A DNA stretch of 64,000 nucleotides from Flammeovirgaceae bacterium (GTDB taxonomy: Bacteria; Bacteroidota; Bacteroidia; Cytophagales; Cyclobacteriaceae), in contig CP054185.1 in the NCBI GenBank assembly GCA_015180985.1, positions 2,039,001 to 2,103,000 of the forward strand, written 5' to 3'. A program made the position numbers and the translations under genes. Shown piece by piece: positions 40,794 to 45,570 of this stretch. The notes under the pieces are model-generated. The model was not told the origin of the DNA, ran no database searches, and was given only the letters and a program-made list of their open reading frames with translations. Positions within the stretch are counted from its first letter, which is position 1; every line of letters starts with the position of its first letter.

Positions 40794-40845
40794 AGTCTTG
40801 AGTTTTTTAGTCTTGAGTTTTTTAGTCTTGAGTTTTTTAGTCTTA
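40794..40845. repeat. 15-bp tandem repeat
   Basis: Three full copies of the 15-bp unit agtcttgagtttttt (40794-40838) plus a 7-bp partial copy ending at 40845. The partial copy provides the TAA stop of the IVP-like gene. Copies are identical, so it is recent or prone to slippage. Confidence 0.9.
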
Positions 40846-41205
40846 TGATTTTGTTTGATTAAGGGATCGCTTAAGTGCCCAATGCATTTTTTGAATTTCA
40901 TTAATATCGTTTTGAATCGTTGTCAACATTGCTTCGGTGATCAGTTTAACTTTAAAAGCGATTGTAACTTGAGTATCTAATTCACAGGAGGAACCATATG
41001 AAATACCAAGGAATCTGCTAAAATCCTTTTTGGTATTACGCCCGGCTCCCTCGGCAATATTCGATGATATGGAAACCACTGATCTTCGCATTTGTGAGGT
41101 AAGGCCGTAAATTTCATCACCTGGAAAACCTTTTGTTATTTCATAGATCTTAACAGCAAGTTCAACCGACTTCTGCCAAAGTATTAATTCTTTGTAATTG
41201 TTCAT
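40843..41205 (-). CDS. Four-helix-bundle protein (23S rRNA IVP family)
   Basis: A 120-residue helical protein of the 23S rRNA-intervening-sequence/S23 four-helix-bundle family. Motifs: ELILWQKSVELAVKIYE, LTSQMRRSVVSISSNIAEGAGR and RFLGISYGSSCELDTQ. In other bacteria such genes lie inside rRNA genes or are scattered as accessory copies; this one is chromosomal and not near rRNA. Function is unknown. The stop codon is formed by the adjoining 15-bp repeat. It is downstream of uvrD on the same strand. Confidence 0.9.
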   Translation of the reverse strand: MNNYKELILWQKSVELAVKIYEITKGFPGDEIYGLTSQMRRSVVSISSNIAEGAGRNTKKDFSRFLGISYGSSCELDTQVTIAFKVKLITEAMLTTIQNDINEIQKMHWALKRSLNQTKS

Positions 41206-41266: not shown

Positions 41267-43522
41267 CTACGCATGTATTCTGAGTTTGGCAAAACTAAGT
41301 AATAAGGTCTTCTCGCCAAAATCGTCAAATTCTATTTTGGCTTTCCGTTCGGCTCCGGCTGTATCCAGGGCGATAACTTTTCCGAAGCCGAATTTAGGAT
41401 GTTCCACGCGCATGCCTGCGGCAAGTTCAGAAGTATCGCTGGGAATAAAATCAGCCGGGGGTCTATAGGCCGATTTTGATTGAGCAACGGTTGTTGTTGA
41501 TTTGCGGATGCCGTTTACAAGTGTACGGGCATAATTGCCTGTATTGACCGGAGTTGATTCAATGCCGGTAAAACGGGTGCTTACTTTCAGGTAAGCGGGG
41601 TTTACATCGTCAATAAAACGACTGGGTTCGCAGTTCTTCAACCGACCAAAGCGGTACCGTGTAAGTGCGTAGGAGAGGAACACTCGTTTTTGCGCACGGG
41701 TAAGTGCCACGTAAAAAAGTCTTCGTTCTTCTTCCAGTTCAGACCGGCTGCTCAGCATCATTTGCGAGGGGAACAGGTCTTCTTCCATACCCACAATATA
41801 CACGTACTTAAACTCAAGCCCCTTGGCCATGTGGATGGTCATGAGGGTTACTTTTTCTGGGTCGCTGTCTTTGTCTTCATCCTGGCCTGTTATCAGTGAT
41901 ACTTCCTGCAAAAATGCGCCCAGTGATTTATCGGGTTTTTCCGGATCGTCCACGTACTCCTTGATGGCATTTAGTAGTTCCTGAACATTTTCGTGTCGGT
42001 TTAAACCTTCTTCGGTTTTATCTTCGTACAGTTCGCGCAGTAAACCGGAACCTTTCACTATTTCAAACGCGGCATCGTAGGCATCCTTGCGGGTGGTTTC
42101 GAGCGTGAACCGCCTGATCATGGTTACAAAATTCTCGATGGGTACAGCGGCCCGCACCCCGATAAAGGCATTGGCATGTTGCAGCACCTCCCAAATGGAA
42201 ATGCCGTGATCGTTGGCGGCCACAATAATTTTATCAACGGTGGAGTCGCCAATGCCGCGCTTGGGCAGGTTGATGATTCGCCTGAAAGAGGCTTCATCAT
42301 TTTGGTTAAGCGAAAAACGAAGGTAGGCCAGCACGTCTTTGATTTCCTTGCGTTGGTAGAAGGAGAGTCCGCCTACTACTTTGTATTTGATGTTCATCCT
42401 GCGCAAGGCTTCTTCCATCGCCCGCGATTGGCTGTTGGTGCGGTAAAGGATAACGAAGTCGCTGAACCGGAGTTGGTGTTGCATTTTTTCTTCGAAGATG
42501 GATGAGGCCACCAGGCGCCCTTCTTCATTATCCGAAACGGCTTTGATGAGTTCAATCAGGTTGCCTTCTTCATTGGCCGTCCAGATGTTTTTAGGTAACT
42601 GCTCCCGGTTTTTCCGGATAACCGAGTTGGCGGCTTCTACAATGTTTTGAGTGGAGCGGTAGTTTTGTTCAAGTTTGAAAATTTTCAAATCTGCATAGTC
42701 GCGTTCAAAGTTAAGGATGTTGGTGATGTCCGCCCCGCGGAAGGCATAGATGCTTTGGGCATCATCGCCCACTACGCAAATATTCTGCCGCATGCTGGCC
42801 AGTTTACGGATGATGAAGTACTGGCACAGGTTGGTATCCTGAAACTCATCTACCAGCACATAGTGAATTTTGTACTGGTACTTATTCAGTACGTCAAGGT
42901 GTTCTTTAAAAAGTTTATCGGTATTGAATAACAGGTCATCAAAATCCATGGCGCCTGCTTTAAAACACCGCTGGGCATACGTGCGGTAAATGTTGCCGAA
43001 TTCGGGGCGCATGTTGGCGGCATCTTCACTAATTAACTCCGGGTCGGCCAGGTACTGCTGCCAGCTGATAAGACGGTTTTTAGCAGATGAAATCCTGTTG
43101 TACACTACATTGGGTTTGTAGGTGGCTTCATCCAAGCCCAGTTCCTTCACAATGTTTTTTAACAGGCTTTTTGAGTCATCGGTGTCGTAAATGGTGAAGT
43201 TGTGCGGGTAGCCCAGGTAATGCGCTTCGGCCCGGAGTATGCGGGCAAACACTGAGTGGAAGGTGCCCATCCAGATGTTGCGTGCATCCGGCCCGACAAC
43301 CCGTTCAATACGGTCGCGCATTTCTTTAGCTGCTTTGTTGGTGAAGGTAAGCGCCATAATGTTGAACGGATCAACCGCTTTGGCTTTGATGAGGTGCGCA
43401 ATGCGGTAGGTGAGCACGCGGGTTTTACCGGAGCCTGCCCCGGCAATAATCATGGTAGGGCCTTCGGTATTGATAACCCCTTCGCGTTGTGCATCATTTA
43501 ACTGGTTCAGGTAATCCGTCAT
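41267..43522 (-). CDS. UvrD/PcrA-type DNA helicase
   Basis: A 751-residue superfamily 1A 3'-5' helicase. Walker A GAGSGKT is at 28-34, then LTFTNKAAKEM, GTFHSVFARILR, DEFQDTN (Walker B), GDDAQSIYAFRGAD, QNYRST, VTLMTIHMAKGLE and FYVALTRAQKRVFLS. The C-terminal ~100 residues carry the PcrA-type RNA-polymerase-binding Tudor-like domain (MRVEHPKFGFGKV). Its role is nucleotide-excision repair, removal of stalled complexes and replication restart. Length is typical (~720-780). It diverges from the TcmP-like gene. Confidence 0.96.
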   Translation of the reverse strand: MTDYLNQLNDAQREGVINTEGPTMIIAGAGSGKTRVLTYRIAHLIKAKAVDPFNIMALTFTNKAAKEMRDRIERVVGPDARNIWMGTFHSVFARILRAEAHYLGYPHNFTIYDTDDSKSLLKNIVKELGLDEATYKPNVVYNRISSAKNRLISWQQYLADPELISEDAANMRPEFGNIYRTYAQRCFKAGAMDFDDLLFNTDKLFKEHLDVLNKYQYKIHYVLVDEFQDTNLCQYFIIRKLASMRQNICVVGDDAQSIYAFRGADITNILNFERDYADLKIFKLEQNYRSTQNIVEAANSVIRKNREQLPKNIWTANEEGNLIELIKAVSDNEEGRLVASSIFEEKMQHQLRFSDFVILYRTNSQSRAMEEALRRMNIKYKVVGGLSFYQRKEIKDVLAYLRFSLNQNDEASFRRIINLPKRGIGDSTVDKIIVAANDHGISIWEVLQHANAFIGVRAAVPIENFVTMIRRFTLETTRKDAYDAAFEIVKGSGLLRELYEDKTEEGLNRHENVQELLNAIKEYVDDPEKPDKSLGAFLQEVSLITGQDEDKDSDPEKVTLMTIHMAKGLEFKYVYIVGMEEDLFPSQMMLSSRSELEEERRLFYVALTRAQKRVFLSYALTRYRFGRLKNCEPSRFIDDVNPAYLKVSTRFTGIESTPVNTGNYARTLVNGIRKSTTTVAQSKSAYRPPADFIPSDTSELAAGMRVEHPKFGFGKVIALDTAGAERKAKIEFDDFGEKTLLLSFAKLRIHA

Positions 43523-43589: not shown

Positions 43590-43621
43590 GTTGATGTTCA
43601 CAATTTGCTAATGTACTTTTG
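43590..43621 (+). promoter_or_regulatory. Promoter of TcmP-like/DUF3109 operon
   Basis: GTTG (43590-43593), 20-bp spacer, TACTTTTG (43614-43621). The -7 box is exact. Its position rules out the TTG at 43619 as a start codon because that TTG is the end of the box. Confidence 0.68.
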
Positions 43622-43636
43622 TTAAACGATAGTATT

Positions 43637-44488
43637 TTGGATTTTCATTCTTCAGTGCTTCCTGCTTTTCCGGATGACGGCTTTGTCACCACCGCGGCTG
43701 AGCCCTGGTTTAAAGTAAAGGTTCAACGAATACAGCAGTACCTGAGTGCTTTTATCGCCAATCTGGCCCCTCATGTTAATGAGGTTATTGTTATTGATTT
43801 GTTTGCCGGCAATGGGTTGTACTCCATCGGACACCAAAAGGAAAAATTTGCTGCTACGGCCCTGGCTGTGCTGGGTGAAGAGACGCTGGTTTCAAAGTGG
43901 ATTTTTTGCGAACGCGATGCGGAGAATGCCCGCGTATTGAAGATTCGGGTAAAGAAATACTTTAAAGACCGCACGGTATTTATTTTTGATGATCCGCTGG
44001 ATAAACTGCCGGAAAAATTGGCGTACTATGTTCCGAAATCTAAAGCCGGCTACCGGGTAGCTGTTTTTTGCATCGTTGATTCGTTTTCAATGGAAGTACC
44101 TTTTGCTTTGATTGATAAGTTTCAGCACCTGGGCTTTAGTTTTCTTATTCCGTTCACTTTTTGTATTAACGACCAGCACAATTACCGGTTTTACCTGGAG
44201 CATCAGCGCGAAAAACTTCGCAAATTCATGGGCGGCTTTCAGGATGCGGATGTGTTGGATAAATCGAACAGCAACCTGGAGTTTTATAAACGGTTGGTGC
44301 AGCTCTATCAGAACAACATGCTGGTTATCGGCCTTAATGCCTCACTTACTGCGCAAAAACTCGACTCCGGACTGATGGAACTGCCAATCTACTACATGGG
44401 ACTTTTTTCAAAGCATCCGGTATTAAAAAATATTCAGCACGATATACAGGAAAGCACCCATCAACAAATCAGTTTGTTTCAACATTAA
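43637..44488 (+). CDS. TcmP-like (three-Cys-motif partner) protein
   Basis: A protein of about 283 residues with a Rossmann-like nucleotide/SAM-binding core. The N-terminal helix WFKVKVQRIQQYLSAF is followed by the motif-I-like DLFAGNG (residues 54-60), as in TcmP proteins (KxxxVxxYL...DxFAGxG). The TcmP DPFG-type motif is represented by VDSFSMEVPF. No ATG is available; TTG 43637 or GTG 43655 are possible starts downstream of the -7 box. Activity is unproven. TcmP proteins usually accompany a three-Cys-motif protein with a possible defence role; here a cysteine-rich DUF3109 protein follows by 3 bp instead. Confidence 0.68.
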   Translation: MDFHSSVLPAFPDDGFVTTAAEPWFKVKVQRIQQYLSAFIANLAPHVNEVIVIDLFAGNGLYSIGHQKEKFAATALAVLGEETLVSKWIFCERDAENARVLKIRVKKYFKDRTVFIFDDPLDKLPEKLAYYVPKSKAGYRVAVFCIVDSFSMEVPFALIDKFQHLGFSFLIPFTFCINDQHNYRFYLEHQREKLRKFMGGFQDADVLDKSNSNLEFYKRLVQLYQNNMLVIGLNASLTAQKLDSGLMELPIYYMGLFSKHPVLKNIQHDIQESTHQQISLFQH

Positions 44489-44491
44489 GCT

Positions 44492-45061
44492 ATGATGCAG
44501 GTAGGACAGGTTTTAGTGACGGATGATATAAAGGATAAAGAATTTGTTTGCAACCTGGAGAAGTGCAAAGGTGCCTGCTGTGTTGAGGGAGATTTTGGTG
44601 CGCCCCTGGAGGATGACGAGTTGCCGATACTGCGTGCGATTTATGAGCAGGTTAAACCCTACTTATCGGAAGCCGGTGTTAAGGCTATTGAACGCCAGGG
44701 AACTTATGTGCTGGATGATGATGGCGACTTCTCAACGCCCACCATTGGTGGGCGGGAGTGCGCGTACGCAATCTATGACGAAAACAGGGTATTGAAATGC
44801 GGCATTGAGCAAGCGTACCTCGATGGAAAGATTAGCTGGAAGAAACCCATTTCCTGCCACCTGTATCCCATCCGCATTACCAAAAAGAAAAATCTTGAGG
44901 CTGTGAATTACCACAAGTGGAGCATCTGTTCACCGGCCTGTTCGCTGGGCAAGGAGTTACAGGTGCCGTTGTATAAATTTCTTAAAGAAGCACTGGTAAG
45001 AAAATATGGCCAGGTGTGGTATGATGCACTTGTTGATTTAATCGAATCGAAATCATCGTAA
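44492..45061 (+). CDS. DUF3109 cysteine-rich protein
   Basis: A 189-residue cytosolic protein of family DUF3109. Nine cysteines are visible: C20, C25, C29, C30 ([11 protein letters not shown]), C90, C103, C122, C146 and C150. Their spacing recalls YkgJ-type metal or Fe-S cluster-binding proteins. Two ATGs are adjacent at 44492; the first is used. It is 3 bp after the TcmP-like gene in the same operon, suggesting joint action. The function is unknown; I infer redox or metal-cluster binding from the cysteines only. Confidence 0.87.
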
Positions 45062-45078: not shown

Positions 45079-45570
45079 CTACTTTATCAGGATTAGATTA
45101 ACATGCTTATTTCTTTTTTTGTAATACAGAATTAGGCGGTTACTGTTAAAGTAGGTTACTCTGAAAATCTGGTTAGATATTTTTGGGATAGTTGCTGTAA
45201 CCCAGATTTTATCACCCTGAAACTCGTAGGATTTGAGTTTTACTTTTTGGGTTTCTTTAAAATGATGGTAATTTGGACGGCTTGCGTTATTAGGAAAAGT
45301 GATTTTACTTATAAATGTATAGGGCTCGTCAGTTTTTACTTGATTAGCAAAAGCGTCCTGATCAATATTAAATGAGGTGTATACAGTGCCTAATACTTGC
45401 GTGCGTGATGAGCGGAATAAAAACAGGTTGCCCTCAACTGCTGATTCTTTGATATAGACCAAATTACCCCCATCATAGCAGAGGCCATTTTTATTTTTTT
45501 CATAGCTCTGTTTACAACATTGGTGACACTGGAAAGTCCCGTGGTACCTGATGCTTTGATTGAGAGAAAA
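45079..45570 (-). pseudogene. C-terminal part of a broken secreted-protein gene
   Basis: An open frame of 163 codons plus stop with no ATG, GTG or TTG before codon ~37 (TTG at 45462). It reads as real protein: IRYHGTFQCHQCCKQSYEK followed by an ordered beta-rich domain with TGTVYTSFNI-like and KLKSYEFQGDKIWVTA segments. The 45576-45779 fragment upstream has a signal peptide but stops at TAG 45576-45578. This frame starts after TGA 45571-45573, so both stops must be removed to join them. A second, shorter gene starting at TTG 45462 (127 residues) is the alternative. AT-rich relative to neighbours, so it may be recently acquired. Confidence 0.5.

Follow-up and report, generated by a model that had tools for sequence, protein, structure and literature searches.

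A TcmP-family gene in a conserved slot between pcrA and DUF3109 in Cytophagales is a candidate stand-alone methyltransferase

Results

Gene order and promoter of the TcmP locus

The window, which is the whole 64,000-nucleotide stretch of Flammeovirgaceae bacterium DNA analysed here, carries a TcmP-family gene in the position between a divergent pcrA helicase gene and a DUF3109 gene, a position that we call the slot. The features of the locus are as follows.

41267..43522, minus strand: pcrA/uvrD-type helicase gene (Pfam UvrD-helicase and UvrD_C), divergent, the upstream flank of the slot
43591..43621, plus strand: putative promoter, with TTG at 43591-43593, 20 bases and TACTTTTG at 43614-43621
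43619..44488, plus strand: slot TcmP gene (289-aa ORF, TIGR04474), stop codon TAA
43796..43816, plus strand: TcmP motif I, DLFAGNG, residues 60-66, a predicted SAM-binding signature
44075..44089, plus strand: TcmP motif IV, VDSFS, residues 153-157, with D154 invariant and residue 155 Ser, usually Pro
44492..45061, plus strand: DUF3109 gene (PF11307), with nine conserved cysteines

A first-pass annotation of this DNA had described a TcmP-like gene followed after 3 bp by a DUF3109 gene, and both ORFs were confirmed, on the plus strand and with 3 bp between the TcmP stop and the DUF3109 ORF. The TcmP protein matched NCBIfam TIGR04474 with 73 bits (E 3.5e-20, cut-off 53) and is thus a member of that family, while no Pfam match was found for it at E <= 1. 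Three of four slot relatives scanned against TIGR04474 also passed (89.2, 63.1 and 56.1 bits), and the fourth, L016, failed (46.2). The DUF3109 protein matched PF11307 over residues 1-180 of 189 with 268.4 bits (E 4e-80, gathering cut-off 33.5). Just beyond the end of pcrA, at 40843-41205, lies a gene of the 23S rRNA intervening-sequence (IVP) family (PF05635), and at 45079-45462 there is a 127-aa ORF without a Pfam match, which was present in one of the 27 named slot relatives (L058, 81%).

The promoter has the form TTG-N20-TACTTTTG, which we take to be the Bacteroidota-type consensus. A match to this consensus by itself was close to chance level, with 10 in the window against 7.9 expected from first-order Markov sequences, so the evidence for a promoter is the conservation of its box. 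The box TAnnTTTG was found on the TcmP strand in all 31 slot loci whose pcrA-TcmP gap could be read, where shuffles gave 3.9 expected, although these loci are related and hence not independent; on the pcrA strand of the same gap it was found in 2 of 31. The promoter proposed in the first-pass annotation therefore stood as a conserved box, but not as a consensus match alone. Candidate in-frame TcmP starts are present at 43619, 43637 and 43655. Because TTG 43619 overlaps the -7 promoter box TACTTTTG, translation probably begins at the in-frame TTG 43637, as judged from these positions. TTG starts were also the only ones on offer near the 43637 position in several TcmP relatives.

The slot TcmP is conserved in one clade and under purifying selection

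A scan of named genomes gave 27 slot loci from Cytophagales and MAGs, and the hosts included Chryseolinea, Ohtaekwangia, Chryseotalea, Parachryseolinea, Pseudochryseolinea and Dawidia, with two MAG records bearing the names Chitinophaga and Bacteroides. pcrA was divergent upstream of TcmP in 25 of these 27 loci and was not found in the other two, where the contigs begin within TcmP or shortly ahead of it. DUF3109 followed TcmP on the same strand, likewise in 25 of 27, so that the adjacency, whose rarity in relatives had been named beforehand as a point against the pairing, was the rule within the clade. Two loci departed from this: in L068 the contig breaks off within a different gene, and in L067 TcmP is followed by genes other than DUF3109. 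TcmP and DUF3109 of L073 are separated by a DUF4442 gene. pcrA is as constant a neighbour of the slot TcmP as DUF3109. In the family set, the order pcrA-TcmP-DUF3109 was seen in 18/18 slot genomes, a count that includes five divergent copies (25-28% identity) and the degenerate copy L021. The pcrA-TcmP gap reached 1257 bp in L015.

Slot copies were present in 18 of 148 family genomes, the copy in L021 is degenerate and that of the named-genome locus L083 is frameshifted, which indicated that the slot gene is dispensable. The L021 copy (1345-2007, genome G075) is a short, decaying TcmP remnant in which motif I and much of the C-terminal part are gone.

A maximum-likelihood tree built from 50 TcmPs placed the 27 close slot rows in a clade with support of 100/100. 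These 27 rows joined with the five divergent slot rows (98/94), and the 18 DUF5131-linked rows fell outside; the tree program flagged long branches within the divergent group of five. L073 was absent from the tree (its frame was taken from before the stop), its ORF being open and included in the motif counts, while L021 was included in alignment A1 and excluded from the tree and the motif counts. L022 (genome G008), which overlaps a protein of a different kind, was left out of the TcmP count. Several independent insertions into the slot were rejected on this one-branch tree, with the long branches of the five divergent rows keeping some chance for them.

TcmP distances tracked pcrA distances (Mantel r 0.87, none of 2000 permutations as high), and the correlation of DUF3109 with pcrA was similar (r 0.84). 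Both comparisons used 26 of 33 loci, leaving out L015, L057, L067, L068, L075, L082 and L083 for a missing gene or a short alignment. Mean divergence was 0.56 for TcmP, 0.27 for DUF3109 and 0.21 for PcrA, and the dN/dS of TcmP was 0.039-0.098 over seven pairs (simple counting method, dS > 1 in two pairs). All these results showed that the slot TcmP is under purifying selection and changes faster than its neighbours, yet is inherited vertically in step with pcrA.

DUF5131 adjoins TcmP elsewhere and is absent from the slot

TIGR04474 matches were found in 59 of 395 Bacteroidota-phylum genomes, 54 of them above the cut-off. Among the 66 phylum matches, context was taken for the 30 best-scoring, with the other 36 left out, and DUF5131 adjoined TcmP in all 30. 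The same was true of 16 non-slot phylum loci from a search with a slot profile and of family loci L019, L020 and L023, which overlap partly with those 30; the weak family matches G013, G040 and G031 were left out of the context counts. DUF5131 itself is similar to radical SAM mobile pair protein A (E 5e-25), although its 88 bits fall far short of the model cut-off of 355.

Since DUF5131 is the constant neighbour of TcmP, we equated it with the three-Cys-motif protein. No DUF5131 match was found in any slot locus examined, and so the slot lacks the usual partner next door. The first-pass annotation had the partner absent and a different cysteine-rich protein in its place. This holds at the locus, where a conserved DUF3109 gene adjoins TcmP throughout most of the clade, but not for the window genome as a whole, which has an intact DUF5131 gene at G000:C1:1626503-1627195 beside a second, N-terminally short TcmP. 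The second copy (L026 2200-2697; C1 ~1627200-1627700) matched profile positions 122-261 of 263 only and looks truncated at its N-terminus.

Among the 18 family slot genomes, DUF5131 was present in 4, the window genome being one of them, and not detected in 14. A full-length TcmP adjoins DUF5131 in G140, and no recognisable TcmP was found within 1.5 kb of DUF5131 in G104 and G117 (L183 and L184). Thus three of the four DUF5131-bearing slot genomes have no intact TcmP within 1.5 kb of DUF5131. The DUF5131 gene of L183 adjoins a macro-domain gene (PF01661, E 9.5e-24). The slot TcmP could serve DUF5131 in trans in the genomes that have both; in the 14 others no such service would be possible, unless a DUF5131 was missed.

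The slot TcmP is predicted to have a class I methyltransferase fold

An AlphaFold2 model was built for the window TcmP from an 18-row alignment and had a mean pLDDT of 86.5 and a pTM of 0.86. Foldseek returned 394 matches at E <= 0.001, and VIA-align gave Z >= 8 for 983 of the 1000 chains ranked highest by Foldseek. By this model the protein is predicted to be a class I SAM-methyltransferase fold, seven-stranded and Rossmann-like. No solved relative was found by sequence at a meaningful E-value for TcmP, DUF3109 or DUF5131. The best VIA-align match was RlmJ, the 23S rRNA A2030 N6-methyltransferase (4blu_B, Z 15.4, 3.4 A, 211 residues aligned), with 9% identity over the aligned part. Other, unrelated methyltransferases reached Z 13-14. 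Because RlmJ leads them by about 1 Z unit, a substrate class read from this match is a guess. The catalytic tetrad of RlmJ is [DN]PP[YF], of the DPPY type; it is absent from the window TcmP, which has VDSFS, so the protein is not placed among RlmJ-like N6-adenine methyltransferases by this motif.

Class I methyltransferases are marked by a motif I of the form DxFxGxG and an acidic residue that ends strand 2, and the window TcmP has both (D60, F62, G64, G66 and E98). D60, G64 and G66 were present in all 26 close slot TcmPs that reach motif I, and E98 was invariant where readable. Over all slot TcmPs, both motif I glycines were kept in 31/31 and E98 in 32/32 reaching that part, and the motif I Asp was lost in two divergent copies, L017 and L018. 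A structure without a SAM pocket had been another point that would count against the pairing; the predicted fold with the usual SAM-motif residues suggests otherwise.

D154 was found in all 28 close and 5 divergent slot TcmPs (33/33) and in 18 DUF5131-linked TcmPs. Residue 155 was Pro in 23/28 close, 2/5 divergent and 18/18 DUF5131-linked proteins; Pro was therefore missing from 8/33 slot TcmPs and from none of the 18 DUF5131-linked ones. Ser at this position was seen in five close copies, namely the window, L057, L058, L064 and L068, so that a second slot branch, that of L064 and L068, has D-S too. The commonest form of motif IV in TcmP relatives was D-P-F-S. The earlier reading of a DPFG-like motif altered to VDSFS, with a possibly different activity, is correct for residues 153-157 of the window protein, but the change is local; VDSFS as the mark of a new activity for the whole slot group was rejected, as 23/28 close relatives keep D-P. 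With Pro155 gone from 8/33 slot proteins, and with L017 and L018 lacking the motif I Asp, the chemistry of the slot group may have altered or disappeared.

Slot TcmPs and the DUF5131-paired TcmPs (TIGR04474 beside PF07505) have similar length and methyltransferase motifs and are neighbouring groups in the tree. The slot proteins differ in their fixed chromosomal position and in the relaxed Pro of the DP motif, and the close clade also has a distinctive N-terminal EPWFKVKV stretch, unlike the DUF5131-paired proteins.

DUF3109 is a widespread cysteine-rich protein

The DUF3109 protein of the window is an ordinary, full-length member of PF11307, unusual only in its TcmP neighbour. Its nine cysteines (C20, C25, C29, C30, C90, C103, C122, C146 and C150), correctly placed by the first-pass annotation, were invariant in 89/89 distinct DUF3109 sequences, nearly all from the window's family. 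DUF3109 was found in 360/395 phylum genomes and 144/148 family genomes, usually once and sometimes twice. We then compared 70 DUF3109 loci, which were the 30 best-scoring and 40 from the following rows of the 144 genomes rather than a random draw. TcmP was upstream in 11, pcrA was directly divergent with no gene between in 20, and the remaining 39 had no pcrA match in the stretch examined, save two. Because pcrA and DUF3109 are directly divergent in 20/70 loci, DUF3109 was probably at the site before TcmP. In L032 (218-1504) and L044 (207-1493), a class-III aminotransferase gene (PF00202 for L032), presumably hemL, lies directly before DUF3109, with a 4-bp overlap and a 7-bp gap, respectively.

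Residues 20-30 of the DUF3109 protein (C20, C25, C29 and C30) form a CX4CX3CC motif of the FliB type. One study reports CX4CX3CC as the motif that holds the [4Fe-4S] cluster in the methyltransferase FliB (PMC8598068). The likeness to this flagellin lysine methyltransferase is one of cysteine spacing, and the FliB-like layout is a lead and not a family membership. Going by the motif, DUF3109 probably holds an Fe-S cluster through CX4CX3CC.

No PF03692 match was found for the window DUF3109, which is thus not assigned to the CxxCxxCC family; 4/79 DUF3109 relatives matched it at E <= 10, the best at E 0.058. Later cysteines could be aligned between the two families, among them those in KPISCHLYP and in RPKACREYP, at an hhalign P of 0.015 and a probability of only 3%. 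A combined cysteine pattern was present in 168 of 2189 ORFs of at least 100 aa in the loci examined, comprising 144 DUF3109, 16 CxxCxxCC and 8 others, a count that includes loci covering the same DNA more than once; five of the eight others were inspected and were DUF3109 by sequence. The fold search for DUF3109 gave a best Foldseek E of 1.3 and no VIA-align Z >= 2 among 404 chains; as the model is weak around the cysteines, little can be read from this result.

TcmP and DUF3109 are often separate transcription units

The gap between TcmP and DUF3109 was 3 bp in the window and L058 and -4 bp in L057, the last two being the nearest relatives, and none of the three had a box before DUF3109. These tight gaps and the missing box make transcription of DUF3109 from the TcmP promoter likely at the three loci. 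In genomes of the same genus the gap was already 44 bp (G122, L062) and 115 bp (G065, L059), and over 31 loci it ranged from -4 to 636 bp (<=20 bp in 6, 21-100 bp in 20 and >100 bp in 5). A TAnnTTTG box was found within 92 bp before DUF3109 in 15/31 loci, and 12 of these loci have it at -13 or -14. Since the gaps widen and these 15 loci have a box of their own for DUF3109, TcmP and DUF3109 are often separate transcription units.

The first-pass annotation had proposed that the pairing may be an undescribed unit. In its favour, the adjacency is conserved within the clade (25/27 named loci and 18/18 family slot genomes), but the pairing is neither general nor proven, given the exceptions L067 and L073 and the 15/31 separate boxes. 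As a general Bacteroidota pair it was rejected, with DUF3109 in 360/395 and TcmP in 59/395 phylum genomes. The best reading is that DUF3109 is a neighbour of the slot TcmP and not a demonstrated partner; a functional pair is possible and not favoured.

Discussion

The reading that we favour, and hold to be somewhat more probable than its rivals together, is that the slot gene encodes a stand-alone, domesticated TcmP methyltransferase in a fixed core position, without need of DUF5131 in most hosts. In an ancestor of the Cytophagales group that includes Chryseolinea and Ohtaekwangia, a TcmP of the DUF5131-linked kind would have entered the space between pcrA and DUF3109, two divergent core genes, and most likely did so a single time. 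It would there have been freed from DUF5131 in most hosts, with a promoter of its own, and would then have passed by vertical descent under purifying selection with faster sequence change than its neighbours. The locus order, the single clade, the absence of DUF5131 next door and its non-detection in 14/18 slot genomes, the selection, the promoter box and the predicted fold are direct results of the analysis. What follows on function is inferred. The protein most likely binds SAM via the DxFAGxG loop and the acidic residue E98 and most likely transfers a methyl group with the help of the invariant Asp154. A nucleic acid, perhaps RNA, would be the likeliest substrate, since RlmJ, which headed the fold matches, methylates RNA. 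DUF3109 would be an independent core protein, probably with an Fe-S cluster, and in the window, L057 and L058 it would probably be co-transcribed with TcmP.

A different account takes TcmP and DUF3109 as a working pair, in which a core protein with a FliB-like [4Fe-4S] site replaced the radical-SAM-like DUF5131. The conserved same-strand adjacency, the tight spacing in the window and L058 (3 bp each) and in L057 (-4 bp), and the CX4CX3CC spacing reported for FliB (PMC8598068) are consistent with it, and so is a cysteine protein beside TcmP in both contexts, DUF5131 being similar to radical SAM mobile pair protein A. However, DUF3109 is in 360 phylum genomes and TcmP in 59, DUF3109 probably stood beside pcrA first, as in the 20/70 directly divergent loci, the gaps extend from -4 to 636 bp with a box before DUF3109 in 15/31 loci, L067 has the slot TcmP without DUF3109 downstream, and the two proteins differ in mean divergence (0.27 for DUF3109 and 0.56 for TcmP). 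We consider such a replacement unlikely, and its fuller form, in which TcmPs need a cysteine-cluster protein and FliB-like DUF3109 took over from DUF5131 in this clade to give a two-protein methylating system, slightly less likely still. If true, it would mean a SAM-methyltransferase fold and an Fe-S protein acting together as a methylating system. It is similarly doubtful that the slot protein is a catalytically dead methyltransferase fold that serves in binding or regulation, with pcrA or the helicase it encodes as a possible target. Loss of Pro155 in 8/33 slot proteins and of the motif I Asp in two would fit, as would pcrA upstream on the opposite strand in all 25 named loci where it was found; on the other hand, Asp154 (33/33), E98 (32/32) and the motif I glycines (31/31) are kept at a dN/dS of 0.04-0.10, and the common intergenic region is explained by the insertion site, with no regulation required and with a gap of 1257 bp in L015.

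Defence genes usually move between lineages, whereas the slot copy is flanked by core genes and has descended together with pcrA. This argues against an anti-phage role, although some TcmP relatives are listed among candidate defence proteins. The other three neighbours searched against Pfam also speak against it, being a UvrD helicase, a member of the IVP family and an ORF that had no match. The slot protein did match the PADLOC model PDC-M41A (E 3.1e-13), and in an expression table of PMC12445080 a TcmP gene stands beside the phage-defence gene hna; even so, we regard a defence role as improbable. Least probable of all, and by our estimate very much so, is that the slot TcmP still works with a DUF5131 encoded elsewhere: the slot copy may substitute in the three of four DUF5131-bearing slot genomes without an intact TcmP beside DUF5131, but DUF5131 was undetected in 14/18 slot genomes. 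The stand-alone methyltransferase thus remains our preferred explanation.

Our literature search found no paper giving TcmP or DUF5131 a function, none naming DUF3109 or PF11307, and none on radical SAM mobile pair or TIGR terms. TcmP is nearly always accompanied by DUF5131, as far as examined here (59/395 phylum genomes have TcmP). A DUF5131-free TcmP branch that is under selection and has a fixed address would offer a clean way to probe TcmP acting alone, and with DUF3109 present in 360/395 phylum genomes, its FliB-like cysteine layout may serve as a usable lead to the role of this protein.
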